Below are positions 41,317 to 64,000 of a DNA stretch of 64,000 nucleotides, one piece after another. A program made the position numbers and the translations under genes. This DNA is from Prosthecobacter sp. (GTDB lineage Bacteria; Verrucomicrobiota; Verrucomicrobiia; Verrucomicrobiales; Verrucomicrobiaceae), in assembly GCA_019186985.1 (NCBI GenBank), contig JABARQ010000023.1, positions 1 to 64,000 on the forward strand, given 5' to 3'. The stretch's first letter is position 1. Every line of letters starts with the position of its first letter. Below the pieces are notes generated by a model. It worked only from the letters and a program-made list of their open reading frames with translations, made no database searches and was not told where the DNA came from.

Positions 41317-42045
41317 TCAGGGGCGGTAGATGCGCGCCTTGCCGGTGTAGGCGTCGATCTGGATGCAATAGTAGTTCGGGGGGGGCATGGTCGGGGAGTC
41401 CACGTTTTGAGACTCGACGAGGGTCATGAAGCTTTCGTTCAGGGGAGGGATGGTGTAGGCGGTCGCCTGGGCGGCGGCGGTGTTGCCAGGCTGGCCCCTG
41501 GTCAGCAGACGGCAGCTGCCGTCGGGGTAGAAACGAAGCGCTGAATAGTTGACGGAATCCCCCCCCGCACCCGTGCCCGGCTGAAAGACAAAGGTCCCGG
41601 AGATGGGCCCCTTGGTCTGGTTGGCCGTGGTCTGCAGCAGGGGTGACAGCTGTGACTGGGGTGACAGGACGATGCCTGAGTCAAAGTAATAGGGTTCTGA
41701 GATGGCGACAGGATCCGTGCCTGAAGGCGTCTCCACCACCTGATAGGCATAAAAAAGCTCGGCGGTCGGCCGGTCTGAGTCAGGATTGACGTAACGATAG
41801 AACCGCATCTCGACCTCCCGGCTGCGGGCAATGGCCTCCTGCTGGGCCAGGCTGAGACGATTGAGGAGGCTGTCCCCGGCCGAACTCAGGCGGGTTGAAC
41901 GGATCACATCCACCAGCGTGGGCGTGGCCAGGGCGACCAGAAGCGCGATGATGCCGACCACCGTCAGCATTTCGACGAGGGTGAAACCCGGGGTGGCGAG
42001 ACGCGTGCGGCTTCGGGCGATGGGGGCGTGCAGGTGCATGACCAT
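41317..42045 (-). CDS. Verru_Chthon cassette protein D (pilin-like)
   Basis: About 242 aa, starting at ATG 42045 (MVMHLHAPIARSR). The type IV pilin-like N-terminal methylation motif is TPGFTLVEMLTVVGIIALLV, with G before FTLVE and a long hydrophobic helix. The rest is a globular domain with GSCRLLTRG near the end. The pattern matches the family I know as Verru_Chthon cassette protein D. The cassette proteins are thought to be pseudopilin-like parts of an envelope or secretion system, with the function not shown. It is the last gene of the block, 21 bp after cassette C. It contains two 8-base G/C tracts. Confidence 0.8.
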   Translation of the reverse strand: MVMHLHAPIARSRTRLATPGFTLVEMLTVVGIIALLVALATPTLVDVIRSTRLSSAGDSLLNRLSLAQQEAIARSREVEMRFYRYVNPDSDRPTAELFYAYQVVETPSGTDPVAISEPYYFDSGIVLSPQSQLSPLLQTTANQTKGPISGTFVFQPGTGAGGDSVNYSALRFYPDGSCRLLTRGQPGNTAAAQATAYTIPPLNESFMTLVESQNVDSPTMPPPNYYCIQIDAYTGKARIYRP

Positions 42046-42065
42046 GACAGGGCGGAAAGGTTGGG

Positions 42066-43193
42066 TTAGATGCTCCACTTGGAACCGCGGAGCTGGATCG
42101 TGGCGGAAAACACCCGGTAGTTCACCTTGCGCTGCTGAAGCATGGTGGTGATTTCATTCACCTCGGACTCCAGGTTGTGCGCCTGGGTGAGCTTGGTGCC
42201 GATCTCAGAGCCAAGCGGCGGAGTCCCCCCTCCTCCCGCCTGCTGGTCGAGCATGTCTGCGGAGCGTTCATCAATGGCGACCAAGACAACACGCACCATG
42301 GGAGGCAGGAGGTGCTGGGTTCCCTGCGGCGAATCGTTGGTGGGATTGACGATGGCGCTGGAGTCATAGGTGTAGGCCGGTGCAATCTGGGTCGGACCAC
42401 TGGTGGACTCGGGCTCGTTGGCCACCAGAGGCTCACGGCGGGGGGAGATGATGAGGGCCACGATGTTGTCGGCCACGGGACGCGTGAGGAGCGTCGAAGC
42501 CTGCTGGTTGCCGCCGCGGCCTCCGCCATTCGCCGACTGTCCAGCCTTTTCAAACCAGGTCCTGGGAATCGGCGCCTTGGGGTTGGACGCCACCGTGGCG
42601 GACGCTGCATACATGGTGTTGAGCTCCGTCGGCGGGCTGAACTCCATGAGGCGGTAGCGGAACTTGCTCTGCCTGTTTTGAATGAACTGGGGCGCCCAGG
42701 ATTCATCGGAGGAGAACTGAACGAAATAGCCCCTGGCGCACAGCAGCTTGTCGAGCCCCACATAGGCGGGGGTGTTGGAGACACCCAGCGGAGCCTGGAA
42801 AAACACCGCATGGCCCGGCAGCATCGTGTCCCCCCCGGCAACGAGGTCGGAGGCTCTTCCGCAGACAAAGTGCAGGTCCGAACGCCGGACATAGGTGGTG
42901 GGCGCCGCAGTGGTGGCCGCCGCGTCGGCGCTGGCGAGATAGTTGGCGTCGTAATCGATGTAGGTGTTGAGCGTCGCCTGGCCCAGGTTGCGGGTCAGGA
43001 TGTCGAAGGCCGTCCTGGCCTCGCGGAACTGGCTGACGCGTGCATTGGAGGCGGACCAGGTGGACTGCACCTGGCCGATGACCTGGGCGCTGATCAGCAG
43101 CAGGATGGTGAGCACGGCGAGCGACACCATGATTTCAACCAGGGTGAATCCCGTCCGCAGCTGGCGTTGCGCGATGAAGGGTTTAGCATTCAT
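42066..43193 (-). CDS. Verru_Chthon cassette protein C (pilin-like)
   Basis: This 375-aa protein starts at ATG 43193 (MNAKPFIAQRQLRTGFTLVE). It carries the type IV pilin methylation motif RTGFTLVEIMVSLAVLTILL, then a long helix (residues 40-75) and a globular domain. It matches the pattern of Verru_Chthon cassette protein C. It probably passes through a prepilin peptidase and joins a pseudopilus-like assembly. It lies 32 bp after cassette A and before D. Cassette B, which I would expect with A, C and D, is not found between A and C. Confidence 0.8.
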   Translation of the reverse strand: MNAKPFIAQRQLRTGFTLVEIMVSLAVLTILLLISAQVIGQVQSTWSASNARVSQFREARTAFDILTRNLGQATLNTYIDYDANYLASADAAATTAAPTTYVRRSDLHFVCGRASDLVAGGDTMLPGHAVFFQAPLGVSNTPAYVGLDKLLCARGYFVQFSSDESWAPQFIQNRQSKFRYRLMEFSPPTELNTMYAASATVASNPKAPIPRTWFEKAGQSANGGGRGGNQQASTLLTRPVADNIVALIISPRREPLVANEPESTSGPTQIAPAYTYDSSAIVNPTNDSPQGTQHLLPPMVRVVLVAIDERSADMLDQQAGGGGTPPLGSEIGTKLTQAHNLESEVNEITTMLQQRKVNYRVFSATIQLRGSKWSI

Positions 43194-43225
43194 GGTGAAG
43201 TGAAGGGATGTTTCGTTCAGGATGA

Positions 43226-46200
43226 TCAGGGGGCGAAGCGCTTGGATTCGATCACACGGAAGCGGTAATAGCTGTCCAGGGGCGGATGAGCGGTTTCGTC
43301 CAGGGGGTCGCCGGTGGTGAAATCAGCCGCCGTGCCGGCCCTGGCGAGGTCCGTCATGTCCACATAGCGTTCGAGCAGGAACGAACCGCGGTACTCACCG
43401 GTGACCTCATCAATTCCAGGCGTGAACTTGTCCACCGCCCAGCCATCACTCTCGGAGCCGCGCAAGGCCTTCTTCAGGGTCTGCACCCTCACATGCACGC
43501 GGAAGGTGTTCGAACGGGTGGTCAGCTTGGCATAAAGGTTGGAATAAGGCGCTTCACGCGTGTTGTCCCCCGTGGAGAGATGATTGTTCCAGAAGTTCGC
43601 CATGGCATCCTCCCGTCCCCGGATACTGTCGAGTTGATCCTGACTGACGTTTTCCCTTGATGGTTCATTGGCACCAGCGACAACGATAGCGGGGTCAGAG
43701 GCTGGGATGCCTGGTATAGGGGTTGCGGGGCGATTTCCTGAGGTTGAAATCCTCGAAGGGATCAGATGCAGCTCACAAATCTGGGAGGCACTGCGGAACA
43801 ACCCGGACCTGAAGGCGCTCGGCATGCCATCGTTGGCAGTGTCACCTCCACTCACCCCGGAAGGCCCGTGCCCTTTTTCTGTCACCCCAAAATTGAAGCG
43901 CTCCTCAAACTGGCGGAGGGTACCCACAACCCGCCTGCTGGCAGCCTTGTAGGTCCACCAGGGGCTGTCGGCACTACCATTTTCATTGTTGAACCTGTCC
44001 ACCACAATCGAGCGGTGCCAGCGGGCTGCCGGGCGCTGTTCGGCTGAAGGGATGTCACCGCGCACGGCTTCGTACCTGAAGAGGGGAGCGGTCTGTCCAA
44101 ACGGACCAAACCCAATGCTATTGCTCCTTGCATATGCATGATCCACGTTAGGCAGCGCGGCAAAGACCTCCGCCTTCATGACGGCATGAAGGGCTGTCGC
44201 CCTTCGGATATGGGTGAATGGGAGCATCTGGTAGTTCATGTTCACCTTGCCAGCCGTGGAGAGGGGTTCGCTGATGGCATAAGGCTCAACCACAGGCATC
44301 CAGAAGAGATCCAGGAGGTAATGATCCGGTGGGGTGGCCTGGCCTGGGTGCCGCGGAAGACCGCCGTTCATCAGCACATGCGGCCGGAACAACAAGTTGG
44401 TCCAGGCGCCATGGCCACCGGAAGAAGCATCCGCACCATTGGGGTTGGAAAAGTACACTCGGCTGGGAAGCGAGCCCATCACGACAGGTGAACTGATCAC
44501 CCGGTTCGGAGTAAAGAAGGAGCGCCCTGCGGCACCAAACCTGGCACCAACCGATGGGGGACGGAAATAGGAAAAGCGGTATTCAACATCTTTTGTCCAG
44601 CCGCTGCCCCGGTAAAAACCTACAGCCATGTTGCCTTCATCTGGCTTGTTGATGAAGGAGCCGACTCGCCCACCTGGGTCGGATTCATCAAAGTCAAAGT
44701 ATCGTTGTGCAAGCCTCGCTGGCGGCAGACTGTTTGTTACTGGATGTGCCAGATCTGCGTTCGTGCCGGCGAATGGTGCGTCAGGCATCAGCCCCTCACC
44801 AACCCTGACGGTGGTTGGCAGCAGGGCCTTGTCATAATCGACTTTTCCCATGAGTTGCTTCACAACATTGCCGGAACGATCAAAACCAGGCTCGGAGCCT
44901 GCTCCATACGAGGAGAAATTGTGGGCCATGAACGCATTAGGCTCATCATAGAGGGGATGGCGGGACCAGTCCTCAGCCTGAACGATAGCCTTGGCAAAGA
45001 GAAGGCGTGCATCTCCATGCCCCGGCAGCAACGAACGGACCACATCTGTTCCCGAATGCAGCGCCATGCTGTTATAGGCCTTCCCCTCCGGATCTGGACC
45101 ATAACTGATGCGCGCCATGCGCACATTATCCCGATTATCCCTAACTTCGTAAAGTTTGACACCTTTATAATTGTCGTTGTATTCATAGCCGTAAATCAGA
45201 GCACGACTGCCGGGGTATCTCTGACTTCTCCCACCAGCGCCAGGCGCCTCATACTTGGCTGAGTCACCGTTCACTGTGATCCTTCCCGCAGGTTCGGTAA
45301 GCCGACCGGGAAAAATTGTTTGTGACTGACCAGTTCGATTAAAGCGTCCGAGCGCCCCCCCCCGGTGGAAAGCCCACCAGCGTGGAGCCTGCAATGTAGG
45401 ATGGGCGAACCTTACCTGATCCGATGAACGAACCCAGCCAAACCTCATGCTGGGTTGAGTCACCAAGTCCGGACTTGGCATATTGCCAGTGGGAAAGTTG
45501 AAAAAGATGGTTTGGACCCTGTTTCTCTGATCATGCCCATCATAAATATCCAATCGTAGAGGCGATGTAGACCTAAATTGTAGGGGCACATCACTTTGGA
45601 CTTTAAAAAAGTTAGACACCAGGTCCATATTCACCAACCCTGAATGGACCCTGCTCGTGACCGAGTCACTGTAGTTGGAATCAGGTGGCATCTGCCCTAT
45701 TCCAGGGAGGTTTCTATTGAATGCCAGGCGCCTGAAACTAGCATAACCACCCACTTCAGGAGCGCTATCAAGGGTAAAAATGGAATCCGCACTCTTGAGG
45801 ATAACATCTTCTGACTTGCTAAAGACAGACCTAAACCCTGTCCCGCCATTAACTTCTAACTTCTGAAGTTCCTGGGCACGCAGCACAACGGTAAACTCGG
45901 GAAAAATGGTGGTATATCCAACAGAGGGGCAGAAAAACTCGAGGTGAAACATCGCCTGAACTTGTTTTTCATCGGGAGATAAGGGTGGCTCATCCGCTGG
46001 CAGAGTGTAGTTCCAGTTCTCTTCCTTGAGTCCTGGGTGATAGTCGGCGTGCCTGCCACGGTTTTCATCAGTCACCGGACCGCTTTCAGTGCCATAGTAT
46101 AAAGCTCCATAAGCATTCTTGTTTCTGGTAATTGGGGGGAAGTTTGAGTAAAAACGCATCTTGATGGCATTGGTTTGAAGACCAGCGTCCTGCCAACAGA

Positions 46201-48622
46201 TGTTGTCACCTCCTCCTGGACCAAGGTTTTGAATCTCCACAGGACCATCACCAAAACCCTCTGGAGCAAGGTGATCAACAAAGTAAAAGTTGGCATCGTC
46301 CTTGAGTCGCAGGGCAGTCCTGCCACCGGAAACCTTGCCCTCCCTGGCCCAACCCTCCAACACCGACATGTTAACCTGAGGCGGAATTTTACCTGGATTA
46401 TCCCGATCACTAAGGTCGGGCTGCACCCAGCCCGGGTTCAGGAACTTGTATTGTTTCACCCCCGGTTTATCGGGATTATTAGGGGCCAGCTCAAGATGAC
46501 GCCAGCTGTACATGTCTGGCTGGCCATCGGCCGTACAGATGAACTGAAGGCCAATTTCACTGATGGAAACGGACCTGCCAAAACCCCGATAATTTTGTCC
46601 GCCGACATTCCAAACGGAAGGCGTGACCTGTCCATGGCCGGGAAAAACACGGTCTTCCAAAGGGTTTTGCTGGTTAGCTGCACCCAAATTTCGGTGAGCC
46701 CCAGGGGTGAACGTCCTGAAGGTGTCCAACAAATTATCACGCTCGTCATAGAGGTTTTTGATCTCGTTCGTGTAGTTGACTGCCAGCCTAGGCCAGTCTT
46801 CCCGACTCCCTGATAAATAGCTGTCATGCAGATTGGTGGAGCGAATATAATCGAACATCTCCACGATGACCTGACGGTAATTGTCATAGCCACCAGCGCT
46901 ACGCATTTTGGTTTTGAAGGTGTTTCCCGCCCCTCCCACTGCGGTCTCAGCTGGAAAAATCGCCGTCGACAGGATTTTGTCGAGCATGTTGAGCAGGGCC
47001 TTGTTGCGCGGCAGGTTGATGTCCGTGGTCGGGCTTCGAGCCAGTTCACGTTGGAAATAATAAAGGTTGGTCGAATTGCGGGCACCCAGGCGCGAGCAAA
47101 ACATGATCAGGTTGTCAAATCCCGTCCGTTTATCGCTCTGTGTATTGATCGGCCACATGGCGATTCGAGGCAGCCCCAGCATGCTGATTTCGCTTGCCCG
47201 GCTGTGCGCGGTCAGGAAGGCGGAGGCTCGTTCCAGAGTCTGTTTGGTGAACAATTCCCCCCCCTGAATGGAGGTCTCATTCAACGTCCGCGTCGTGCCG
47301 CCCAGGGCGGAGAAAAGCAACTCATCCACGCTTGCGTAAAGCCTCTCCGTCAGTGCGTTCCTCATCTCCACTGCATTCGCCAAACCACCTCTGCCCTGGT
47401 CATAGGTATCTGCGGCAAACAAACTGGTCCCCGCATTGCTTCCGCCCGAGTGAATCCTTGGGATAAGGTTGTAAATCCGGTTCTTGACGGATAGCGCTGC
47501 CTCAAAGGCGGCGGATCCTGCGGTACGTGGAGTGTATCCAATTGGGTAAACCTCCAGAACCCGGTTCAAGTCCAGCATTGGATTGGGATAGAGCACACTG
47601 CTCAGGGCCACGGTGGCGGGATGACCAGGAAAACGTTGGTACTCATTGCGGGCCGCAGAATAATCGGCCCAGCGATGATCACGTTCATGATAGTAGATGG
47701 GACGCCCCTGGAAGGTGGGTTCCGAGGCGGTGTTGATGTTGATCTTGCAGGTTTCGTCATCCGTCCAGAAGGCCAGGCGGGCCACAATCGGATTGCGCGC
47801 ACTTGCATCCTGCGTGCCGACAAACTTCAGGCTGTCGTTCAATGTTCCAAGCGTGCCGTCCTTGAGCATGTACAGCCACTGCACCGGCATCGCCAGCCTG
47901 AGCGAATCAATGCCTCCGCCGGAGGCGGGCGGCTGGACAATCGTCTGCTGCCCTGTCTTCGGGTCTACATTGGCAATGTTCCTGCCTGTAATCGCCGTGC
48001 TGGTTGAATACTGGAAGCCCTCCACTGGAATCGACGTCCCGGCACCCGGGTTCATGCTGTAGGCCGCACGAGGGTCAATGATTGGAAAGTAGGTCTGAGT
48101 GGAGGCCACGGCTCCATCCGTCGAAACCACGCCTTTGACGACGGGTTCGTTCAAGTCCACATAGCGTGCGACATTGTTTTGTTCATTCCACTTCGCAGGT
48201 GGCTCAGACTCGCGAACAAAGTTGTACTCCTCTCCGACGCTGGTGGCGCCGGCGGAGGCTCCCGACCCCTGATAGATCATGGAGGCATCGGAAAACAGCT
48301 TGTAACCGGCCAGGAAGGCGCCGCTGGCCGTGTATTTCCGCACCGCACCGGGCTGGGTGGCGTGAATCTCACGACCACTGACACCAGTGTCCTGATCCGA
48401 CCCCGCTCGAATCTGGCCAACCACAATGTTCACCGCCGTGTCGGCGAGGCGCCGGGCCGACTGTGACGAGGAGTAGGTCATCGTGCCCTTGTGCTCGGTG
48501 TCCGCCACGCTGAGGAAGGCAAGCATGACAATCGTCGCCAGCGCAATCATCGAAAGAACGATGATGAGAGCCAGACCACGACTTCTCCTGGCGTCCTTGA
48601 GGAAGGTTCGAATGGTTTTCAT
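43226..48622 (-). CDS. Verru_Chthon cassette protein A (large pilin-like protein)
   Basis: This 1798-aa protein uses ATG 48622; a TTG at 48634 is possible. Residues 14-40 (SRGLALIIVLSMIALATIVM) are a pilin/PilX-like transmembrane segment, followed by the family pattern SSSQSARRLADTAVNIVVGQ. The long remainder has no named domain I recognise, with motifs such as RLAFWTDDETCKININTAS. It matches Verru_Chthon cassette protein A. A stretch near 44.6-46.9 kb is visibly less GC-rich than the ends. Poly-C tracts of 9 and 8 bases are present. It lies downstream of the giant protein gene and upstream of C and D. Confidence 0.8.
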   Translation of the reverse strand: MKTIRTFLKDARRSRGLALIIVLSMIALATIVMLAFLSVADTEHKGTMTYSSSQSARRLADTAVNIVVGQIRAGSDQDTGVSGREIHATQPGAVRKYTASGAFLAGYKLFSDASMIYQGSGASAGATSVGEEYNFVRESEPPAKWNEQNNVARYVDLNEPVVKGVVSTDGAVASTQTYFPIIDPRAAYSMNPGAGTSIPVEGFQYSTSTAITGRNIANVDPKTGQQTIVQPPASGGGIDSLRLAMPVQWLYMLKDGTLGTLNDSLKFVGTQDASARNPIVARLAFWTDDETCKININTASEPTFQGRPIYYHERDHRWADYSAARNEYQRFPGHPATVALSSVLYPNPMLDLNRVLEVYPIGYTPRTAGSAAFEAALSVKNRIYNLIPRIHSGGSNAGTSLFAADTYDQGRGGLANAVEMRNALTERLYASVDELLFSALGGTTRTLNETSIQGGELFTKQTLERASAFLTAHSRASEISMLGLPRIAMWPINTQSDKRTGFDNLIMFCSRLGARNSTNLYYFQRELARSPTTDINLPRNKALLNMLDKILSTAIFPAETAVGGAGNTFKTKMRSAGGYDNYRQVIVEMFDYIRSTNLHDSYLSGSREDWPRLAVNYTNEIKNLYDERDNLLDTFRTFTPGAHRNLGAANQQNPLEDRVFPGHGQVTPSVWNVGGQNYRGFGRSVSISEIGLQFICTADGQPDMYSWRHLELAPNNPDKPGVKQYKFLNPGWVQPDLSDRDNPGKIPPQVNMSVLEGWAREGKVSGGRTALRLKDDANFYFVDHLAPEGFGDGPVEIQNLGPGGGDNICWQDAGLQTNAIKMRFYSNFPPITRNKNAYGALYYGTESGPVTDENRGRHADYHPGLKEENWNYTLPADEPPLSPDEKQVQAMFHLEFFCPSVGYTTIFPEFTVVLRAQELQKLEVNGGTGFRSVFSKSEDVILKSADSIFTLDSAPEVGGYASFRRLAFNRNLPGIGQMPPDSNYSDSVTSRVHSGLVNMDLVSNFFKVQSDVPLQFRSTSPLRLDIYDGHDQRNRVQTIFFNFPTGNMPSPDLVTQPSMRFGWVRSSDQVRFAHPTLQAPRWWAFHRGGALGRFNRTGQSQTIFPGRLTEPAGRITVNGDSAKYEAPGAGGRSQRYPGSRALIYGYEYNDNYKGVKLYEVRDNRDNVRMARISYGPDPEGKAYNSMALHSGTDVVRSLLPGHGDARLLFAKAIVQAEDWSRHPLYDEPNAFMAHNFSSYGAGSEPGFDRSGNVVKQLMGKVDYDKALLPTTVRVGEGLMPDAPFAGTNADLAHPVTNSLPPARLAQRYFDFDESDPGGRVGSFINKPDEGNMAVGFYRGSGWTKDVEYRFSYFRPPSVGARFGAAGRSFFTPNRVISSPVVMGSLPSRVYFSNPNGADASSGGHGAWTNLLFRPHVLMNGGLPRHPGQATPPDHYLLDLFWMPVVEPYAISEPLSTAGKVNMNYQMLPFTHIRRATALHAVMKAEVFAALPNVDHAYARSNSIGFGPFGQTAPLFRYEAVRGDIPSAEQRPAARWHRSIVVDRFNNENGSADSPWWTYKAASRRVVGTLRQFEERFNFGVTEKGHGPSGVSGGDTANDGMPSAFRSGLFRSASQICELHLIPSRISTSGNRPATPIPGIPASDPAIVVAGANEPSRENVSQDQLDSIRGREDAMANFWNNHLSTGDNTREAPYSNLYAKLTTRSNTFRVHVRVQTLKKALRGSESDGWAVDKFTPGIDEVTGEYRGSFLLERYVDMTDLARAGTAADFTTGDPLDETAHPPLDSYYRFRVIESKRFAP

Positions 48623-48774
48623 GGGGGGAGGCAATTTCGGGATTTATGTCAATTAAATCGAAATCGGAGAAAAATTTCAAGCCATGAAGTCAATGCACAG
48701 TATTTACTTGGTTAATACAAAGGCGGACCAGCGTAGCGCCATCCATGACTCGTCTGGCAGAAATCACCGTTTTT
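48623..48774. other. Intergenic region between the giant protein gene and cassette A
   Basis: 152 bp of mixed composition, AT-rich near cassette A. Words such as TTGACT and TTGACA are present on the minus strand, but no paired -10 is convincing. Cassette A has no clear Shine-Dalgarno site in this leader. Confidence 0.3.
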
Positions 48775-54700: not shown

Positions 54701-57700
54701 CTGGAAAGGCCGATGATGTCATAGACGACGTTGTTGGCGTCCGGATTGAAGGCGAGAACTGAAGAGCCGTTTGCGGCGATACGGGCCAGACGGTTGCGGT
54801 TTCCATCCCCTCTCACGCTGGTGAAGGATCCCCCGATGACGTAGCTGCTGACGACACCGCCGACCTCCTCCGGAAGTATGGCCCTGACCTCGTTGTTGCG
54901 GATGTCCGGGCTGACAAAACTGGTGTCCAGCACACCGTTTGAATTGAGGCGGGCGAGGCGGGTGCGCCCAACGCCGGAAATCGCCGTGAAGCTGCCGCCC
55001 ACCATGATTTTGCCGTCGCTCTGTTTGAGCAGCACACGGACATCACCGTTGGCATTCGGGTCCAGGGCCAGGTCCAGTGAACCATCGGCATTCAGGCGGG
55101 CGAGACGGTTGCGGGTGGTGTTCGTGTTGTTTTCATCCGCCGTCTTGTTCTGACGGAGGGTGGTGAAGGTGCCGCCGATGAGAATCTTGTCATCCGGCAG
55201 CACCAGGATGCTGCGCACTTCGCCGTTCATGATGTAGGCCTTGAAGGTGGTGTCCACCGATCCGTCCTGGTTCAGACGCACAAGGCGGCTGCGCACATGA
55301 TACTCCGGATTGTTCGGATCATAGCCGGCATCGGTCGCTTTGGGGGCGGGCTTGGTGGGCTGTCCGTCAAAACGGGTGAACGAACCACCCACAAGCACCT
55401 TGCCATCCGGCTGGACGGCGACGGCCAGGACGGGAACGGAGGTGCCGAGCAAGGCGACCGGTGTGCCCCAGGAAACCCCCTGGGCATCGTTGCAACGGCT
55501 GTAGAGCAGCATGCCCGCCGTCTCGTCATAGAAGGTGACGGCAGGGTTGCCGTTGATGATGGAAAGGGACGGATGGCGTCCCGTCACTCCGCGGCTTGCC
55601 ACCGTCACAGGAACCCCCCAGGCCGTGCCGCGGGCATCCAGGGCACGAACGAACTTGAGATCCTGGGTGGTGGCATCGTAGTAGGCCACCGCAGGATAGC
55701 CGCTGACAACTACAGCGGACATTTCCTGCCCGACATCCGTCGTCGTCTGGCTGCTCTCCACCTTGCCACCCTTTTTCCAGGGCCCCGCAGATGCGTTGAC
55801 CGAACCCACCTGGATGCTGTTGCCGATCGTGCCTCCTTCGACAATCAGGTCAATCCCCGCCTCGGGGGAGGTGTTGGTGAGACTGGTGCCAAGCAGCACG
55901 CTTCCGACAGCCTGACCGAAAACATTCGGAACGTTTGCGGCGACAAGCAGTCCTTCGGCGATCTCGATGCCTCCGGCGTGGTCGTTGGACACCCCAAGCC
56001 TGAGGGTGCCGAGGCCGAACTTGATCAGCCGTCCCAGGCCTGAAAGCGCCCCACCCAGCTCCGCTTCGACAGCAATCGGACTGTCCTGAACACGCACCGC
56101 CTGACTGAAGGAGCCGAGGTCGATGGGGTTGGCGAACGTCAGCTTGTGAGTGGCGTCATGACTGCCGAGGATAAGCGAGGCTCCATCCGGAACAAAGCCG
56201 TTGTTGCCAAAGCGCAGCGGTTCGGAAACCGGCGCACCACCAATGTTGACAACCCGGTCAGCTCCATAGGCCGCGAAGCCGCCGCTGCCCGTGAACTGAA
56301 TCTGATGAACACCTGTGCCCAGGCTGCGCTGGAAGTCCGACAGGCCCAGTCCTATGACACCTCCGTTGACAATGAGCGAACTCGTTCCGCCGGAGGCACC
56401 GATGCCACCCGGAACTGCATTGGCCGAATCCAGCCTCAGCACGCCGCCGTGGACATACGTGTTGCCAGAATAGGTGTTGGTGCCGGACAGGACCGTGGTT
56501 CCAATGCCTGTCTGGATGAAGTTAACCACATCCTTGAAGGTGTAGACCTGGTTCGTCTGGTTGCTCAAGGCGGGCTGGCTCAGGATGAGCCGACTATAAA
56601 CAATTTCAACCGAGGTCACCGTCGTCCCAGGCTGGATGCCCGGACCCGAAACCTCCATGCCGGGACGAACCATCAGGAAAAAGTCCAGGTCTACGCCGCC
56701 GGCCACCTTCATGTCCACTTCACCTGCCTTCAGGCTGCCTTTACCGGCGGTTGGATTCGAGCTGGGTGCGGCTAGGATCTGCCGGTCCACAATGCCAGCA
56801 CCAATGGTGAACGGCGCAGAAGTGTTGTAGTTGTGAAGGATAAGGTCGCTGTTGACGGCGTTCTGAGCCCCGCCGGTTAGGCTGCCAGGCCCGATGATGC
56901 TCTTGATTGCATCCTGGACAGCGCTGGTCACGAGGATCGCACCGTCTACCAGTTCCACCGTCTGTCCGGCGTTAATCGAGACACTGCCATCCACCCGCGA
57001 TGCATAACGAAGGACATTGACGTAACGGTTGCCGGTAACTGTGCCATTGAAGCTAAGGTCAAACTGCTCACTGGGGCTGGTGTTCCTGGCACTGCTGCGT
57101 GCAGTCTTCCAGTCGTCTGGATTCGATAGATAAGAGTCCGGATTATAGCGCGCTTCGGCAGAGATAATCGCCCCCGTCAACGAGTTGACCGTCGCAAAAT
57201 GATTGACTCCTTCAGTCAGGCTGTTGGTCGCCTGATAGGTGGCCCAGGGAAGGATGCGCTGACGGAGGAAAGTATCGAGCATTAGGAAGATATTGGCCGC
57301 ACCCCCGCCCTCCTCAGGGTTCTCAACAAAGTGGACGGTACCGCCTGCATAGCGAAGCACGTCCGTCAGCTCCTCCTGTCCCATGAGATTCAGGGTCATG
57401 CTGCGGGCGGGTGTGAGGTCGACCAGATTGTTGGGATCATAGCCGGCCACGCTCGTGGCGATGACCTTGGAGGCTCCAGCCTCGACCACCATCTGGGTGC
57501 CAAGAGTCTGGGTGACGTTGCCTTCAGGCGCTCCCCTGGCCTCCAGGACACCGCCTGAGAGAACCAGCTGGGTGAGGCTGCCCGTGGCAAAGTTACTGGG
57601 GGAGAAGGTGGCCGGAGCAGGGTTGGAATCGACGGCCTGCAGAAGCAGCTTGCCCTGCATGACACGAATGGCCGCCAGGTTGGCGTTGCCATTGAGGATA

Positions 57701-60700
57701 AGCGTGCCAGGGCCGTCCTTCTCCAGCCGGTCCTGGCCGGAGGCAATGGCACCCGAGAAGGTGACCTCGGTCTTTTCATGCCCGATGTTCAGCCTGGCAA
57801 AATCCGCCACAGTGAAGCCGCGGTTGGTCTGGTTGCTGTCCCCCACATACTGCAGGGTTCCACCGTTGAAAACCAGGTTTGCAGAGGCCGCCGAGGAGGC
57901 TCCAAGACTGCCGACAACACTGCCGTCGGTCAGCTTCCCGGCACGGATGGTTCCGTCGGCGATGAAAGTCACACCCGTATAATCGCTTACCCCGTTGAGG
58001 GCGACCACCCCGGAGCCGAGCTTCTCAAGCCCGATGCTTGGGGTGAATGTCACCGTCCTCTTGTCTCCGGTGTAGAAATGGTTGGTACTGACCTCAATGT
58101 CACTCTCGTTGTAGATGAAGGTGATGGTCGAGCCAAAAGGGATGCCAGGTCCGCGAACCGGCATGCCGATGTAAAGGTCTGTCGTGGTGACCATGCTCAC
58201 GGGGTTGCCCCCTCCGGAGGGCTTGACCATGCCGATGACCCGGCGGCGATAGGTGTCCGTGGTGCTGGCGCGACGTGTGGTGCTGCCAGCTCCGAGAGTT
58301 CCACCGCTGAAGGTGTAATCCGCCCTGCGATAGTTGCCGTCGTGATCACGGCTGAGCCTGATGGCGTGACCGTCAAGAATTTCCTCAATGGTGGTCGGAT
58401 TGACCACTCCGGCTCCAGTCACCGTCATGCCCACCTCCAGCCCGGCGGTGCCGGTCGCGTTGGTCGCGGAAAGATTGCTGATGCCCGCGATGATCCTTCG
58501 GCCTGGATTGCTATAGACGCCCTGGCGGACAATAGTCTGGCTGCTGTCAGGGCTGGTAAAGGTGTAGTTGATGGCGCCGCGGTAGGTGTTGTCCGTGTTG
58601 CGGTCCAGGATGATCTTGCCACCGGCAGCATCCACCTGGTCAATCACGGAGCCGGAGGTGATGCCGGTTCCGGAAACCGTCCATCCAGGCTGCAGGTCCG
58701 AAAGGTCGGTGAGGTAGATGTACCTGCGAAGGTCCGCCGTCAGATAGCCCGAACGCTGGAAGGCCGCCCGATCCGTGATGCTGTTGTTGATGACCAGGGA
58801 CCCAAACTTGTTATGCTGCTGAAGGATGAAGTTCTGAAGGTTGCCCTGGTTCTCCGTGGTCAGGCGTCCTGTGCCTGTGATGGTGGAGTCATTGCCTCCG
58901 ACGGTGGGTGAAACCAGGATGCCGCCGCTGCGGATGGAATGAACACCGTTGAACAGCAGCGAGACAGTGGCATCGATCTGGCTGGCAAACCTCACTGAGA
59001 AGGTGTTGCGCTGGGCGGCCAAGTTCAGGTCCCCGACGATGTTGCTGTTGATGTTGGAATCCCATCCCGTGCCATAGCTGTCGTAAGGCATGATGAAGCC
59101 GTCATTGAGGGTGGTGGAGTTGCCGGGCAGACCGGCGTTCTTCGCCCAGCCAAGATCCTGGCGTCCGTCGTCGAAGGTGCCGTTGGCCAGGGCGGTGGGG
59201 GCCCCGTAGCTTCCATTGTCGGCGATGCGGGTGTAGTCCGGATAAAGGGTGCCGCTGGGCAGCGAGGGCGAGAGCTGGGCCTTGAGGATGTCGGATACCG
59301 GAAGCCCCCCGACGTTGTCCCCGCTGACGAAGGCGACGAGGTCATTGGTGGTGTTGAAGTCGTTGGTGGTGAAAACGGTGTAGATGTAAGGATCACCGAG
59401 GGTGCCCTGCCCTGTCAGCGTCGAGGTGATCGGCCCTGTTGTGTTGCCATGCTGGACGGCAACCCGGACGCGGTCATTGCCGTCGGAACCCGGGAAGAAG
59501 TCCTGGTTGACGCTGAAGGTGAGTGCAGCGGGTCCGGCACGACGTTCCGCCCCCTGGGTATGGATGACGTGGGCGCCGCTGCCATTGGTGGTGATGTTCA
59601 CCGGCTGTCCGTTGGGAGCCGTGCTCAGGCGGAAGCCAAGGCTTTCAGCACGCACCACATAATAGTCCGTGTCCGGCAGCAGCCCCTGGGGGAGGATGCC
59701 ATAGGACTTGACCCTCACCCTCACCCCGTTGGCCAGGCCATTGCCTTCAGCCGTGGTGAAGAGATCCTGGGCGGCGTTGGCCTGGAAGCCTTGTTCAACC
59801 GCCATGGTGATCGTACCGCTGCCAGCGGAGGTCAGGTCGACCCTGGGAGAGCCGGCGCTCATGCTTGTCGCAAGCAGGAGCCGTCGGTTGGCGCCGTTGC
59901 AGTCCACCGCAAAATAAGGCGTGTCTGGCATCAGCCCGCCTGGAAGGTCGCCCGTGGAACTGAAACGAACGACGCTGCCCCTTGTCACGACATGATTGAC
60001 GGCGGTGAGCACCTGGTTCGTGACAGGGTCCACCGTCACATCATAGCTGCGCTCGGTGGAACCAGGGATGACCCAGTAGGCGTTGACGATCGCATCACGA
60101 ATGATCGCCCAGGCCCCCAGGATGCCGGCCGAGCCGAGGATGCCGTTGCTGTTGTTGGCCTGGTCAACCTTCGCAATCCTGCCGCCGTCGACATAAAGCG
60201 TGCTGCCCGTGCTGCGGATGAGGTTGTTGAGCCGGATGGTGCCCGCCCCTGATTCACGAAAGATCTTGCTAGCCCCAGCCTCAAGCACGGTCTGTGCGAC
60301 TACCTCCTCATGAGAGCCTCCCCTGAGGATCAGGGTGCCCCCGCGACGGGAGCCGCCCAGGCGAAGGTTGGCGGTGTCCGACAGTTTCGAGGAGTTGTTC
60401 AGCCCATAGTCAAGGATGAGGGTGCCGGCGCGCACGGCCCACTCACGGTTGTTGCTGGCCACCGTGCTGGGGGTGAGCATCTCCCCGCTGAAGATGAGGG
60501 TGCCCTCACCCTCCTGGTTCAGGCCGTGATAACCCAGCAGGTTGCCACCCAGGTTCAGGACGCCGTTGGCACCGACGGTGATTCTCGCTGGCGCGTTGGT
60601 GAACAGGTCGCCCGCCCAGGAGGATGTGGCATTGGCTGGCACGGACACAAAGCCTCCTTCAAAAAGGATGTCCTCCGTCGCCAGGTACTTCACATTGTTA

Positions 60701-63700
60701 AGCTCAAGCGTGCCGGAGACCAGGTTCACACCCGCACCGCTGTTGCCGCGGGCGTCGGTCACATAATATAGCGTGTCCGGCGTCCCTTCAGAGATCGGCG
60801 TGACCAGGTTCGTACCTTCCGGATCCGTGGCGATTTGAAAGGTGCCTCCGCTGGAGTTGACCACATAGTAAGTGGTGTTTGTCAGGAGGCCTCCCGGCAG
60901 CACGGGAGTCACCCCCGGAATGGACTTCGTGTTGAAGGTGACCTTCGATCCGTTGGGAAGCAGTCCGGTGAAGCGGTTGCCTGAGGAGCTGTAGCTGGTG
61001 GACCGGTAATTGTCGATCTTCGCCGCCACCTTCACATTGACCCCGACGCTGGTGAGCGTGATGGCGGTGCCGCCAGGCGTGGCAGCCACCTTGAACGTGC
61101 TGCCCGTGGACTCCACCACATAGTATTGCGTGTCCGGACGAAGACCGGCAGGAAGGGTGGTGGCGGCAAAAAGCGGAAAGCTGACGGGGGTTCCATCCGG
61201 ATAGTTGCCCGTAAAGGTTGAGCCGGACACTGTCGTGGCCGCCCCGACGGTTCCCAGCGCATCGTTCTTGGTGATGGCCAGGGTGCCGTTCTGGACGGTT
61301 GTCAGACCGGAATACGGGGCCGCCTTGGAAAGCAGCCAGCGACCCGTGCCCGCCTTGAAGATGCTCGAGGGCTCGGAGGGCGACTTGTCACCCAGCTCGA
61401 TCTGGAAACGGTTGTCCCCAACGCCAGTTCCGGAAAGGGTCAGCGTGCGGGGACCTGAATCCTTGAAGGCGATCGGGGTCGTGATGGAGGATGTTCCGGC
61501 TACAATGTCCCTGAACTCGGTGCCGAGGGTCACGGTGGCGGCACGGATCGTTCCGTTGGCGGCAACCGTCGCACCGTTGGGACCGGTTCCCATGGTGAAA
61601 GAGCGGTTGGTCGACTGTGCCACCGACGGTGCAACAATCAGCGTTCCCTTATCAATGAGCAGAAGTGACGGATCATCTGCTTCAACCCTTCCGAGCACAG
61701 AGCTCGTTTCAAAAACACGCCCCAGGGAAGCCACCTCCACCGCCCCCGCCTGGATTTCCAGGCCGCCGCTGAAGGTGCTGCTGGAATTGTTCAGCCGAAG
61801 CGTTCCCGGACCTTGCTTGACCAGCTTCAGGGCAGCCAGATTGCCGCCGACGGTGAACCCATCATTGAGAACTCCGTTATAAACCTGATTGATATCCAGG
61901 TTGAAGAACACGGATGTCGCGCCGCTGATGGAGTCAGGTGCATCCGTGTTGCTGATGACCGAGCCTTGGACGCTGTTGATTCTCCTGATGGTCTGGCTGA
62001 TGCCCATGAGATTGACGGAGGTGCCGCCAATGTCCAGGATCAACCCGCCTGTCCCCCATGCCTGGGCCGAAGCAAGCCTGAGGGTGCCAGAATTCATGAC
62101 CAGCGGCTCAGTGAAGTTGGAGTCACCACGCCAGGTGTTGCTTCCCAGGATGGTGATGTCTCCAATGAGCGCCCGGATGGGGGCCGTGAAGTCATTGTTG
62201 CCCTCCAGGACGAACCTGCCCCCCTCGCTGAAGATGCCGCCGATGCTGTTGTTACCGCGAACCACCATCAGGCCTTCGAAACTGCCCTCCGTCTTGATGC
62301 CGGCACGGTAGGTGTTGGTGCTGGACGGCGTGCCCAGGATGATGCTGTTGGTCTGCCTTGGATTGAGCCCGGTGTTGGCAAGAACCGCCAGTTCAAGCAC
62401 GCCGATGGCGTTGATCGGGTTGGCGATGGTGAAGTTGATCTGCGGCACGGAAGCCCCGCCGTCATTGTTGTTGTTAGGAATGGCGGTGCCGATCTCGATG
62501 CGCCCGCCGCCCGCCCCGATGGTCAGCCCCGTCTTGCCGTCATTGAGGCTCAGGTTATAATCCTCAACCGGCGGTGTGCCTGTGGTGACATGCGTGATCC
62601 GCAGCGTGCCTCCGTTAATCTGGATCTTGTCCGGAACAAAGGCTTCTGGCTCCTGGCCCAGCGAACTCAGGATGGACAGCTGCACGATGCCGTTGTTGAT
62701 GTAGGTCTTGCCGGTGTAGTTGTTGGTACCGCCCATGATCAGCAGGCCAGCGCCCGATTTCGCAAGGCTGACCGAACCTCCGGAAAAGCGCAGCTGGGAG
62801 CTGGTGGGCAGCGCGCCGACAAGCGGAACGCTGATAGTGACCTGGTTGTTGTTGGTGTTGATGCCCAGGATCCTGGTTCCTTGGGCGACACTTGGCGCAG
62901 CAGCCCCGAGGCCGGTAATTTCCATGCCCACGGTCAGGCCGATAACGTTGTTCATGGTCACGACACTTGAACCCGCCGACACAGCGCCGTTGGTTACGAT
63001 GTCCGCGAGGAAATCAGTGACCACGGTGCCCAGGGTAAGCTGGGTGGAGTTGATGATGTTCAGCACCGCTGAATCATTCTTACCCGCCCCGACGGTCAGC
63101 GCCCCACCGCCTGAGATGGTTGCCGTACCGGTGTGAACAAGCAATCCGCCGGACTCAATGCTCAGACGCCTGCCGCTCATGTTCAGCGTCTGCCCCTGCA
63201 TGTTCAACGAGTTGATGACACGGTTGTCTGACAGCGTCCTGGCCGCCTGCATCTTGACGTTGTTGCTGGTGCCCCAGCCCGTCTGGTCTCCTGTGTTGTA
63301 ACCGCTGGCAGCCAGGCGCTTAACGCCGTCCTGGCCGTCAGCGACATTGGTATCATAGGTGGCCCACTCATTGTCAATGGTCGCCCACCCTCCCAGGATG
63401 CCATCATCAAGCACCGGGGTCTGGCTGAAGAGAATGCGGTTGCGGTTGATCGCGGCGGTGCTGCCGCCCTCACCAATCGAATTAACCACTGTGGTAATGG
63501 ATCCACCGTCGTTCTGCCGGCCCAGGAAGTCGATGGTTGCCCCAGGTTCAACCTTCAGGGAGTCGAAGGTCAGCGTGCTGGTGCCCGAAGTGCCGGCTCG
63601 ATAGGTCTGCAGCTGGAGCTGACCCTGGCTGAGCAGCAGCTGTCCCACGGTCTCCGCGAAGGTGCTGTTGACCATGTTGTTGTGGAAGGTGAAAAGCCCT

Positions 63701-64000
63701 CCGTTGGACTCCAGCGTCACCGTGTTGCCGATGCGGTTGGAGTTGTTGCGGTTGACCAGCGGGCCATTGGCCGGATCAGTCGTGGCGGAGGTCGTCACCT
63801 CGTTGCGCAGCTCAATGCCACCCCCCCCCCCGACGCGACCCGCGATGCTCAACGTCGTCTTTGTTCCGCTGAAGGTATCGTTGACGGAGGTCGACCAGCT
63901 AGCGGCATCGGTGGTGGCCAGCCCGCCGTTGCCGAGGGCGAGCGTGCGCCCCCCTGCCGTGATCAGGCTGCGGATGGTGTCTATGCTTCGGATGTCATTC
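48775..64000 (-). CDS. Giant multidomain surface or secreted protein (beta-strand repeats, delta-60 repeats, Ig-like), N-terminus outside window
   Basis: About 5074 codons are visible with no stop. The frame is open to the window edge; TTG 63852 is only the first possible start inside, and upstream codons read NDIRSIDTIRSLITAGG, so the true start lies beyond. The upstream part (to ~55.8 kb) has autotransporter-associated beta-strand repeats such as GSGVVALNGVSDYTGVTFIA. Next come propeller-like repeats (PAVAYYDATTQDLKFVRA) around seven delta-60 repeats (54.3-55.4 kb, AVQPDGKVLVGGSFTRFDG). More beta-strand repeats (52.0-53.3 kb), Ig-like domains (50.4-51.5 kb) and an Ig/PIG-like LPPGLKVDATTGWITGRPT segment follow. 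No autotransporter barrel or PEP-CTERM tail is seen. Probably an adhesin or surface layer component. Confidence 0.8.
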   Translation of the reverse strand, partial: NDIRSIDTIRSLITAGGRTLALGNGGLATTDAASWSTSVNDTFSGTKTTLSIAGRVGGGGGIELRNEVTTSATTDPANGPLVNRNNSNRIGNTVTLESNGGLFTFHNNMVNSTFAETVGQLLLSQGQLQLQTYRAGTSGTSTLTFDSLKVEPGATIDFLGRQNDGGSITTVVNSIGEGGSTAAINRNRILFSQTPVLDDGILGGWATIDNEWATYDTNVADGQDGVKRLAASGYNTGDQTGWGTSNNVKMQAARTLSDNRVINSLNMQGQTLNMSGRRLSIESGGLLVHTGTATISGGGALTVGAGKNDSAVLNIINSTQLTLGTVVTDFLADIVTNGAVSAGSSVVTMNNVIGLTVGMEITGLGAAAPSVAQGTRILGINTNNNQVTISVPLVGALPTSSQLRFSGGSVSLAKSGAGLLIMGGTNNYTGKTYINNGIVQLSILSSLGQEPEAFVPDKIQINGGTLRITHVTTGTPPVEDYNLSLNDGKTGLTIGAGGGRIEIGTAIPNNNNDGGASVPQINFTIANPINAIGVLELAVLANTGLNPRQTNSIILGTPSSTNTYRAGIKTEGSFEGLMVVRGNNSIGGIFSEGGRFVLEGNNDFTAPIRALIGDITILGSNTWRGDSNFTEPLVMNSGTLRLASAQAWGTGGLILDIGGTSVNLMGISQTIRRINSVQGSVISNTDAPDSISGATSVFFNLDINQVYNGVLNDGFTVGGNLAALKLVKQGPGTLRLNNSSSTFSGGLEIQAGAVEVASLGRVFETSSVLGRVEADDPSLLLIDKGTLIVAPSVAQSTNRSFTMGTGPNGATVAANGTIRAATVTLGTEFRDIVAGTSSITTPIAFKDSGPRTLTLSGTGVGDNRFQIELGDKSPSEPSSIFKAGTGRWLLSKAAPYSGLTTVQNGTLAITKNDALGTVGAATTVSGSTFTGNYPDGTPVSFPLFAATTLPAGLRPDTQYYVVESTGSTFKVAATPGGTAITLTSVGVNVKVAAKIDNYRSTSYSSSGNRFTGLLPNGSKVTFNTKSIPGVTPVLPGGLLTNTTYYVVNSSGGTFQIATDPEGTNLVTPISEGTPDTLYYVTDARGNSGAGVNLVSGTLELNNVKYLATEDILFEGGFVSVPANATSSWAGDLFTNAPARITVGANGVLNLGGNLLGYHGLNQEGEGTLIFSGEMLTPSTVASNNREWAVRAGTLILDYGLNNSSKLSDTANLRLGGSRRGGTLILRGGSHEEVVAQTVLEAGASKIFRESGAGTIRLNNLIRSTGSTLYVDGGRIAKVDQANNSNGILGSAGILGAWAIIRDAIVNAYWVIPGSTERSYDVTVDPVTNQVLTAVNHVVTRGSVVRFSSTGDLPGGLMPDTPYFAVDCNGANRRLLLATSMSAGSPRVDLTSAGSGTITMAVEQGFQANAAQDLFTTAEGNGLANGVRVRVKSYGILPQGLLPDTDYYVVRAESLGFRLSTAPNGQPVNITTNGSGAHVIHTQGAERRAGPAALTFSVNQDFFPGSDGNDRVRVAVQHGNTTGPITSTLTGQGTLGDPYIYTVFTTNDFNTTNDLVAFVSGDNVGGLPVSDILKAQLSPSLPSGTLYPDYTRIADNGSYGAPTALANGTFDDGRQDLGWAKNAGLPGNSTTLNDGFIMPYDSYGTGWDSNINSNIVGDLNLAAQRNTFSVRFASQIDATVSLLFNGVHSIRSGGILVSPTVGGNDSTITGTGRLTTENQGNLQNFILQQHNKFGSLVINNSITDRAAFQRSGYLTADLRRYIYLTDLSDLQPGWTVSGTGITSGSVIDQVDAAGGKIILDRNTDNTYRGAINYTFTSPDSSQTIVRQGVYSNPGRRIIAGISNLSATNATGTAGLEVGMTVTGAGVVNPTTIEEILDGHAIRLSRDHDGNYRRADYTFSGGTLGAGSTTRRASTTDTYRRRVIGMVKPSGGGNPVSMVTTTDLYIGMPVRGPGIPFGSTITFIYNESDIEVSTNHFYTGDKRTVTFTPSIGLEKLGSGVVALNGVSDYTGVTFIADGTIRAGKLTDGSVVGSLGASSAASANLVFNGGTLQYVGDSNQTNRGFTVADFARLNIGHEKTEVTFSGAIASGQDRLEKDGPGTLILNGNANLAAIRVMQGKLLLQAVDSNPAPATFSPSNFATGSLTQLVLSGGVLEARGAPEGNVTQTLGTQMVVEAGASKVIATSVAGYDPNNLVDLTPARSMTLNLMGQEELTDVLRYAGGTVHFVENPEEGGGAANIFLMLDTFLRQRILPWATYQATNSLTEGVNHFATVNSLTGAIISAEARYNPDSYLSNPDDWKTARSSARNTSPSEQFDLSFNGTVTGNRYVNVLRYASRVDGSVSINAGQTVELVDGAILVTSAVQDAIKSIIGPGSLTGGAQNAVNSDLILHNYNTSAPFTIGAGIVDRQILAAPSSNPTAGKGSLKAGEVDMKVAGGVDLDFFLMVRPGMEVSGPGIQPGTTVTSVEIVYSRLILSQPALSNQTNQVYTFKDVVNFIQTGIGTTVLSGTNTYSGNTYVHGGVLRLDSANAVPGGIGASGGTSSLIVNGGVIGLGLSDFQRSLGTGVHQIQFTGSGGFAAYGADRVVNIGGAPVSEPLRFGNNGFVPDGASLILGSHDATHKLTFANPIDLGSFSQAVRVQDSPIAVEAELGGALSGLGRLIKFGLGTLRLGVSNDHAGGIEIAEGLLVAANVPNVFGQAVGSVLLGTSLTNTSPEAGIDLIVEGGTIGNSIQVGSVNASAGPWKKGGKVESSQTTTDVGQEMSAVVVSGYPAVAYYDATTQDLKFVRALDARGTAWGVPVTVASRGVTGRHPSLSIINGNPAVTFYDETAGMLLYSRCNDAQGVSWGTPVALLGTSVPVLAVAVQPDGKVLVGGSFTRFDGQPTKPAPKATDAGYDPNNPEYHVRSRLVRLNQDGSVDTTFKAYIMNGEVRSILVLPDDKILIGGTFTTLRQNKTADENNTNTTRNRLARLNADGSLDLALDPNANGDVRVLLKQSDGKIMVGGSFTAISGVGRTRLARLNSNGVLDTSFVSPDIRNNEVRAILPEEVGGVVSSYVIGGSFTSVRGDGNRNRLARIAANGSSVLAFNPDANNVVYDIIGLSSGKFLVGGAFTALSGGNIARTRLARLNNDGTVDETFAQEVNNEVRDMYLQTDGSVLLAGVFTQVGDYQRNFSARLQPDGEVDASFNPDPDYEVRDMTTLADGKIVIGGLFTQVGGQGHQMVGRLQASGTADSGFNARRAIDWGRASSLAFINGAPAIAFQDVANKDVYYVRSTDANGVNWPNPELVEAGGDLGAAISLGMSNIGGDLFSKNDQGNQDTGDDTVFVTGTGNVANVANIGTPAIVFTDATTSSIRYSLALNVNANALTAPLTNWFPSIVVPGTAGRVDDHLSFGIVQGIPAIAYQDKVSQNLKYVRASNVAGFSHNLRDPDTFELFTNIKVSELVLTPAWSAPVIIDPSANVGAFPSLAIVTGLTGSGAALPAVSYYDAANGDLKFAAAADTAGSTWSSPATLVSLQDVGRATNLMMTDGLPAVAYYNVTAGDIDFVVMSKASGYSRIAFTADTTLGGAVQLGGTTILSPAAGATVQLSGLVSGDAGFRLVGQGVLSLLHAANTFGSSLAQPGVTNGPGAAVNGSVIMRSGTLLAGASGALGLGTVELGDAVPREVTVDRATAISITRLGGSFDPEHDGENVTANGPGAFLGVNATIDGRHYGLTATTADSISNRFTGNLANGTEIIFYFSINPNPIQGGVPYFVRDSTGTNFRVSATLNGTAVNIEAAGQDVFYMEASKLSSRILVKDEAEHPERNGIYRVVITTDTLDRSENRINLARDSSMDSVAEMISGSRVHVQAGSSAGKTFFVTGTPQTLNLSAVHWVEDAMNVDISLLASDDDVTLGNGIDINTQGGGVKLTLGAASSVTSGVVDYTGVLTLQNLVQAGQELQNLHLTSSTSTGFGVRLSGVISEADGGTGATKDRLTLIKEGTGVATLAGNNTFTGGITINQGTLLVMNTPSAPTSSGTGSGAVQVNAGAVLGGTGTIGGAVTLAGAVGNKAILRPGDPTSSSASAELLTINQPLTVGAHSVVEFTVGATNLTRLAGNSLSLSTSSSNILVQLAPGYLPEQGKEFDILDISGGINLFGGVSNLLNLLLLPVEKVWDTSKFMTEGKIIAMEDSEPTQVTGHPLSRTVQQGEPVSFTVTYTGTGPVSIQWMRNDADIPGATSATYSIPNARQDHEGVYKVRVMNPVNPTGAISNPATLQVDWPLSFAVNLPATKMGSLGDPVTFRVTMNGEAPISYQWFKGSDPIPGETGPTYTISSVQNADTGTYQVKVIGPFNPAPGLLSQACAFSISLGNAVVLDPPGSQTVLAGDDVVLTAQAGGDNNRRVLQWRRGSTQLFGEDSDTLNVPDITLAQAGEYTFRVDNVNLTTGKAANATSAPAFVVVVENAGRVVPAQVGKSVKLTVNVGAPSKVKPQFRWRKNGIEIAENGFGGRFKGVTTKTLSIDKLELTDADVYTCEVSGAAGTTPVVGGTTHLNVYNQGPALVKTTPPDVGMIGAAYAWKIPVTSDQAPTTELPEPGLVTPQKYEVKGLPPGLKVDATTGWITGRPTAVSKSPSGYPVTIQVSNAVKLTTPEAVAAAKWDTVINIRPLPAGIAGTYAGPVERSDLNQNLGGRFDMTVTSTGTLSGKLTMGGDASRSFAGAFNLQFDNTGALTAAPEAEIFIAATKTAPALTIAFGLDITAPSNLADPPVTVLSTPTITAKTGSVAFEAWRNNFGKSVVAGVARPATEFIGLYNLAFGLEEGDSLIGNDAVPQGSGFASFTVGSNGAYTLAGRTADNEKLTGAAWVGPEGQCFVFQTLYTTKPKGSVLGSFEILKGAVPRDNDISGGFDWVRPANPKSRLYKNGFGLAGMTVPTPVVLEVYGGFYSPTVATGTLFDLDPLNPGPVDILADLLFSEDGTFDDSIPTGGDVDTLTNPNLNGGTPITVRAGNKLDIPFITALTKIAATKTGGLSGSFKLVDGALKRSVSFQGLAVRRLLSAPGAPTRDTDVMGVGYFIIDQKPVGLEKPTTSPQQSGIFIFQDR
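63821..63831 (-). repeat. Poly-C (11 bp; poly-G on the coding strand) tract in the giant protein gene
   Basis: Eleven identical bases code part of a Gly run (GRVGGGGGIEL) in an otherwise open frame. A one-base change here would shift the frame and stop the protein. This is the longest G/C homopolymer I noticed in the window. Confidence 0.8.

Follow-up and report, generated by a model that had tools for sequence, protein, structure and literature searches.

A giant repeat protein gene within a Verru_Chthon cassette of Prosthecobacter: a candidate minor pseudopilin tip set and its possible cargo

The locus and its genes

Prosthecobacter sp. carries a Verru_Chthon cassette in which the gene of a giant repeat protein stands between the cassette genes. 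We describe this locus from a window of 64,000 nucleotides, bases 1-64000 of an 84,547-base contig (C29) in a genome of 5.9 Mb. The locus is a five-gene operon-like series, B-giant-A-C-D, and all four Verru_Chthon families (A, B, C, and D) exceed their curated cut-offs in this one same-strand block. Three of the cassette genes lie on the minus strand of the window: A (43226..48634, with a likely ATG start at 48622), which encodes a long putative tip pseudopilin of the GspK type of ~1,800 aa (TIGR02600, 878.3 bits; cut-off 332.3); C (42066..43193), which encodes a GspJ-like putative minor pseudopilin of 375 aa (TIGR02599, 360.2 bits; cut-off 256.5); and D (41317..42078), which encodes a GspH-like putative minor pseudopilin of 253 aa (TIGR02596, 111.9 bits; cut-off 70). 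The 3' part of the giant gene occupies 48775..64000 on the minus strand, runs off the window end, and continues to contig position 70350; it carries TIGR02601 and TIGR02608 (delta-60) repeats.

An earlier note on this DNA had described the A, C, and D genes, the gap of 32 bp between A and C, and the giant repeat frame, all of which hold. It had also reported that B was missing, and had supposed it replaced, lost, or located elsewhere. This absence was apparent, because the window edge cuts the series before B. A search of the genome for B, which the note had proposed, finds it on the same contig and the same strand as the giant, A, C, and D (contig 70394-70999), 6.4 kb past the window end and a short way upstream of where the giant begins (70350). 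Its TIGR02598 match (contig 70403-70867; 95.8 bits in the genome search, 95.6 in the protein scan; cut-off 51.4) rules out loss or replacement: B opens the series, and the giant gene separates it from A. The junctions read B-(43 bp)-giant-(140 bp)-A-(32 bp)-C-(overlap of 13 bp)-D.

Beyond D lie guaB, for IMP dehydrogenase (39805..41283, minus strand; Pfam IMPDH, 1.8e-149), and after it guaA, for GMP synthase (about 38241-39920; GMP_synt_C, 4.9e-39). These genes were considered as further members of the system and rejected once identified; they are a housekeeping flank and a synteny anchor, outside the system. A scan for promoters and terminators across 41200-49000 gave results at chance level. 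The next gene upstream of B, read from the same strand, encodes a PAS-domain histidine kinase, a possible regulator (G000:C29:71118-74042, or L005:9118-12042, minus). The middle of gene A has a lower G+C content (0.54 in window 44001-48000) than the adjoining 2 kb blocks (0.62 and 0.59).

Conservation of the locus and neighbors of the cassette

We surveyed 288 genomes of the phylum, with only the two best candidates per genome scored for A. The A family exceeds its cut-off in 8 of the 288: four genomes of the genus (this one included), three more of the family, and one of the class. Some A match at E 0.001 or better occurs in 156 of 288, and the weak ones among the matches listed mostly cover the first ~60 positions. 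All four genus genomes hold one cassette with B 17-22 kb upstream of A, the giant between them, and C right after A. The whole order B-giant-A-C-D occurs in 8 genomes, with giants of 5,620-7,756 aa, and in these 8 whole loci the B-giant, giant-A, and A-C junctions are all under 180 bp. Among named relatives, Brevifollis gellanilyticus NBRC 108608 has this order, as do a MAG of Prosthecobacter debontii and two further MAGs of the Verrucomicrobiaceae; in a ninth genome, B and then the giant stand at the end of the sequence read. An assembly error as the source of the A-C-D order was rejected, because all four genomes of the genus and these named relatives share it.

A FastTree tree was built from 125 A proteins, with A frames under 850 aa and the loci L112, L117, L154, and L147 left out. 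On it, the A proteins of the B-giant-A-C-D loci fall within a single 14-row clade (support 100). The 18 rows of a related clade, also with support 100, have the order A-B-C-D; this clade belongs to a larger group in which the inner branching is not resolved. In 16 of the 18 loci of this second clade, a PEP-CTERM-tailed repeat gene lies directly upstream; four of its giants, read further, extend over 8,316-9,961 aa and start beyond the sequence read. The guaB gene adjoins 9 of the 14 loci of the first clade (the window and 8 of 13 others) and 13 of the 18 of the second; the homologs at related loci are 81-93% identical, and none was found at the other cassette loci examined. Both clades therefore occupy largely the same chromosomal place, and the simplest reading would be that B shifted its position with respect to the giant just once.

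The pattern has exceptions. At L103 and L123, A stands without a giant upstream and a gene of another type takes its place; L103 does have C, and its genome, a 3.5 Mb MAG, yielded no B. The genome of L107 has a B match only below the cut-off. The present genome holds a second cassette, on contig C16, in the contiguous order A-B-C-D, with A, B, and C over their cut-offs, a pilin-like gene in the place of D, and no repeat gene directly beside it.

The earlier note had also proposed a survey of how often cassettes and giant repeat proteins occur together, and the survey does find them together. We compared 52 cassette regions from 8 genomes with 40 random 20 kb control regions, drawn from cassette-bearing contigs in 7 of these genomes (the window's own excluded). 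By a repeat HMM whose 16 seed repeats came from cassette regions, which could slightly favor those regions, 26 of the 52 cassette regions hold a TIGR02601-like repeat gene, as against 4 of the 40 controls (one-sided Fisher test, p 3.4e-5). PEP-CTERM tails were called by custom patterns; the first wrongly scored one control tail (L087), and with the second the counts are 25 of 52 cassette regions and 8 of 40 controls (p 0.005). Taken together, a repeat or PEP-CTERM-like gene is found in 35 of 52 cassette regions versus 9 of 40 controls, and 17 of 52 cassette regions hold neither. Where such genes lie within 1.5 kb of a cassette, 28 of 31 are co-directional with it, and several gaps measure 20-31 bp; L026 and L030, in which no A frame was placed, count among the 52 and are absent from this strand count.

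The arrangement itself varies: with R for the repeat gene, we find R-A-B-C-D, B-R-A-C-D, B-C-A-R, and A-B-C-D-R. Across 76 named loci (80 less four that repeat G217 or G234 records: L112, L117, L154, and L147), 36 have a same-strand repeat or PEP-CTERM-like neighbor, 3 have one on the opposite strand only, and 37 have none, although some contigs end too soon to show one. Mapped on the A tree, the neighbor state requires at least 19 changes over the 107 scored of 125 rows, a count made without a shuffled control; the pairing thus arose or was lost repeatedly. From these data, the association is recurrent rather than one inherited locus, yet a large share of cassettes stand without such a neighbor. 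In one genome (G217), 21 A genes exceed the cut-off, many beside different repeat or PEP-CTERM-like proteins. Two further arrangements were seen in the sample. A PEP-CTERM repeat protein and cassette A share one frame of 2,074 aa with no stop between (L032:8457-14681, G066:C8), through true fusion or through loss of a stop codon; and a tandem A-A-repeat gene-A-B-C-D holds three A genes in a single cluster (L051 and L052, G217:C38).

Features of the cassette proteins and the giant

NCBIfam describes the Verru_Chthon families by cassette name and gives no function. Other NCBIfam models that match in the window belong to minor pseudopilins of the type II secretion system (T2SS): GspH is the next best for D (2e-8), GspJ is the next best for C (2.8e-7), and A matches the GspK N-terminus (5.8e-6); against Pfam GspH, D reaches 0.015, below the cut-off of that family. 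All four proteins stay under the T2SS equivalog cut-offs (A/GspK 26.1 of 130; C/GspJ 30.5 of 64.85; D/GspH 34.4 of 80; B/GspI 15.9 of 44.35). Across the families, GspK matches 11 of 13 A members; GspJ and ComGF match 16 and 17 of 22 C members; GspH and ComGD each match 20 of 21 D members; and PilV, XpsI, and GspI match 14, 10, and 9 of 19 B members. Competence and type IV pilus models thus match B, C, and D as often as T2SS models do. In hhalign comparisons with the E. coli K-12 pseudopilins, A pairs best with GspK (52%; others at most 5.5%), C with GspJ (89%) and then GspG (83%), B with GspJ (78%) and then GspI (69%), and D with GspG (96%) and GspH (95%); the resemblances of B, C, and D fall mainly within the common N-terminal pilin helix. 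Among PDB sequences, the A profile had no match, the B profile retrieved unrelated chains only, the C profile gave weak pilin matches only, and the D profile matched pilin N-termini broadly. By sequence, then, C resembles GspJ, D resembles GspH, and B resembles GspI or PilV.

For A, structure adds to this picture. We modeled the A of a relative (L167) with AlphaFold2 from 41 sequences, the window's A included (pLDDT 73.7, pTM 0.81). Foldseek alone returned nothing under E 0.001 for this model. A second-look aligner, run on Foldseek's candidates for this relative's A rather than the window's, matches it to GspK in the GspK-GspI-GspJ complex (3ci0_K; Z 10.8, rmsd 3.7, 256 of 280 residues, spread over model residues 20 to 1200), and the next chain after GspK reaches Z 4.3. 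On the strength of this fold match, we read A as a GspK with inserts, which amount to some 900 residues in L167 and to about 1,470 in the protein of the window; the E. coli GspK has 327 aa, and the window's A reaches about 5.5 times that length. Glu at position +5 is absent from all 108 readable A proteins (of 125), as it is from E. coli GspK, and is invariant in the alignments of B (19 sequences), C (22), and D (21).

The engine genes of such a system lie elsewhere in the genome. There are seven GspE/PilB-type ATPases with more than 280 bits and seven secretin matches; the ATPases all stay below the GspE equivalog cut-off, and the secretins all stay below that for GspD. Contig C29 has no GspE or GspD match; all are on other contigs, and so the cassettes look like tip sets without their own engine. 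GspE-GspF modules occur on C3, C16, and C18, some with pilin-like genes, and shorter GspK-like frames of 354, 327, and 446 aa (on C10, C3, and C16) lie within about 5 kb of GspE/GspF, all below the cut-off. The reading that fits the cassette best is a K-I-J-H minor pseudopilin tip set lacking an engine.

The full giant has 7,191 aa and a signal-peptide-like start. Its delta-60 score (TIGR02608, 76.4) falls just below the cut-off of 76.5, and Pfam places Ig and DUF5122 domains in it. The earlier note had described the giant as free of a barrel, and no C-terminal outer-membrane barrel of the autotransporter type appears in the whole protein among Pfam matches up to E 0.1. Its further remark, that there was no recognized sorting tail, holds where PEP-CTERM is concerned: the C-terminus, read directly, lacks the PEP motif, hydrophobic stretch, and basic end. 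It fails in another respect, in that the last ~430 aa, which match no Pfam family at E 0.1, form a domain with 60 matches in this genome. The profile of this domain was built from 12 sequences, the window's giant included, and its counts are of matches, of which one protein can give two: besides the 60 here, there are 33, 38, and 32 in the other genus genomes, 48 in G234, and zero in G066, G217, and G078. A count by eye puts 11 of the listed matches no more than 10 kb from a cassette A; these include the four genus giants and two genes upstream of orphan A genes in G190 and G199. Few of the listed matches being so placed, proteins of this kind do not all require a cassette in cis. The orphan A genes (L016 and L021; G190:C9 and G199:C3) have no recognized B, C, or D beside them and are preceded by two genes, of ~1,040 and 1,207 aa, with the giant's C-terminal domain.

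A model of the giant's C-terminal region (48778..50277, minus strand; ~430-500 aa) is all-beta (pLDDT 75.5). We read its strand list as three 8-stranded meander barrels in tandem, of which the third has low confidence. Foldseek returned nothing under E 0.001 for this model. Among the 50 matches listed, barrel 1 aligns with the barrels of fHbp, TbpB, and streptavidin at Z 7.7-9.2; we claim no kinship, because small barrels without any relationship can come close to such values. The modeled region is a candidate sorting or anchor domain. Since PEP-CTERM-tailed neighbors occur at other cassettes, the data suggest that two kinds of C-terminal tags, the barrel domain and PEP-CTERM, serve proteins beside cassettes.

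A possible export role and its alternatives

Large surface-type proteins often stand beside the cassettes of relatives, and each set may therefore be a made-to-measure exporter for its neighbor. We lean, somewhat beyond even chances, towards reading B-giant-A-C-D as an operon in which an engine-less tip set of the GspK/I/J/H type exports the giant encoded beside it through a shared engine. In this scheme, the giant would enter the periplasm through its signal peptide, and a prepilin peptidase would process A-D, which may then assemble into a tip. The tip would sit on a filament that a T2SS or type IV pilus engine from elsewhere in the genome builds; the oversized A, with its partners, might recognize the neighbor-encoded giant, and the filament might push it through the secretin to the surface. 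There, the C-terminal barrel domain would handle surface retention, as the PEP-CTERM tail may do in relatives. By analogy with known systems, a shared engine would mount each Verru_Chthon set as a tip, and the set would handle the protein encoded next to it. The earlier note's proposal of a pseudopilus-type cassette dedicated to the giant draws support from the recurrent, co-directional linkage and from the GspK fold of a relative's A; its step of export or display is one that we infer. The cassette is probably dedicated to exporting or displaying its neighbor.

Several known systems offer points of comparison. In the T2SS, four minor pseudopilins make up a tip complex, which PMC6211770 describes as critical for substrate recognition. 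The GspK-GspI-GspJ-GspH tip (XcpX, V, W, U) shares with the cassette the GspK fold, as modeled for a relative's A, the lack of Glu5 in A, and the sequence likeness of C, D, and B to J, H, and I; the cassette departs from it in the length of A, in the absence of engine genes found in cis, and in scores that all fall below the equivalog cut-offs. Unlike a complete T2SS locus, it has neither GspD nor GspE on its contig. Compared with the Verru_Chthon cassette as named, all four members are present here, but in the order B-giant-A-C-D instead of a contiguous A-B-C-D or B-C-A. The giants of the A-B-C-D clade resemble the PEP-CTERM/exosortase substrates of Verrucomicrobia in their PEP-CTERM-like tails, whereas the window's giant has the ~430 aa C-terminal domain instead.

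A rival account, which we hold to be unlikely, makes the cassette a type IV pilus tip: A-D would be equivalents of FimU, PilV, PilW, and PilX, and the giant would be a PilY1-like adhesin that stays on the filament. PilY1 and its minor pilins do form clusters of four such proteins with one large protein, as PMC7541494 relates, and several such clusters per genome are found there as here; PilV matches among the B proteins (14 of 19) and the GspE/PilB/PilT-type ATPases in the genome fit this account as well. However, the giants, at 5,620-7,756 aa in 8 genomes, set the locus apart from PilY1 clusters, and the window's giant has no PilY1-type domain among Pfam matches up to E 0.1. The partners in many relatives end in PEP-CTERM-like tails, which fit membrane sorting better, and the relative's A model fits GspK among Foldseek's candidates, to which no PilX-type structure was expressly added. 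A pilus tip of this kind and the export of the giant by the tip set differ mainly in where the giant would finally reside.

It is more doubtful that the cassette does not handle the giant at all, with both being abundant secreted-type genes gathered at favored expression sites and the tips serving general secretion. Large repeat proteins are indeed common in these genomes, few of the listed C-terminal-domain matches adjoin cassettes, the C16 cassette has no repeat gene directly beside it, and other gene types precede A in L103 and L123. Mere proximity accounts poorly, however, for the shared direction of 28 in 31 close neighbors, with gaps often of 20-31 bp, for the excess over controls (26 of 52 versus 4 of 40), for at least 19 changes of neighbor state on the A tree (without a shuffled control), and for a giant inside the cassette in 8 genomes. 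PATR/TIGR02601 repeats are typical of autotransporter passengers, a link also present in the Pfam family name, and their presence in the giant raises the idea that it exports itself in the manner of an autotransporter (type V), the cassette being unrelated to export. This we regard as very improbable: the giant has no Pfam match to a C-terminal autotransporter barrel, and its C-terminal model is read as small 8-stranded meander barrels rather than one large membrane barrel.

Export of the giant by a tip set on a shared engine may be one case of a wider arrangement. As a tentative generalization, to which we give less than even chances, Verrucomicrobiota would use exchangeable, cargo-dedicated K-I-J-H tips, with an oversized GspK as receptor, on a few shared engines, and a tandem-barrel C-terminal domain as an alternative to PEP-CTERM. 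For type IV pili, PMC7541494 has several minor-pilin/PilY1 clusters able to use one machine, as suggested for the three clusters of M. xanthus, and PMC12075869 reports alternative tips for the M. xanthus Tad-type pilus.

The families themselves are already named; what is new here is a putative tip set of minor pseudopilins whose operon encloses a giant gene and whose GspK is oversized. A literature search for Verru_Chthon and for TIGR02596, TIGR02598, TIGR02599, and TIGR02600 returned no paper on the cassette, and a broader search, judged by title and the start of the abstract, showed none either. To our knowledge, the manner in which the T2SS chooses its cargo is still an open question. The proposed reading would give a concrete function, that of a duplicated tip complex of the T2SS/T4P type, to four families that have so far had a cassette name only, and would show one way in which some very large bacterial proteins may be exported. 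The genome of G217, with its many A genes and varied neighbors, would let the pairing of tip and cargo be read from sequence.

The window holds other frames at a distance from the cassette, all on the minus strand. Two adjoining frames (window 1994-3298 and 3801-5000) have near-identical starts (MNPLCSRVEDQSE...) and lie in a stretch of low G+C content (0.48), and a frame of 1,746 aa (window 5610-10850) has a signal-like start.
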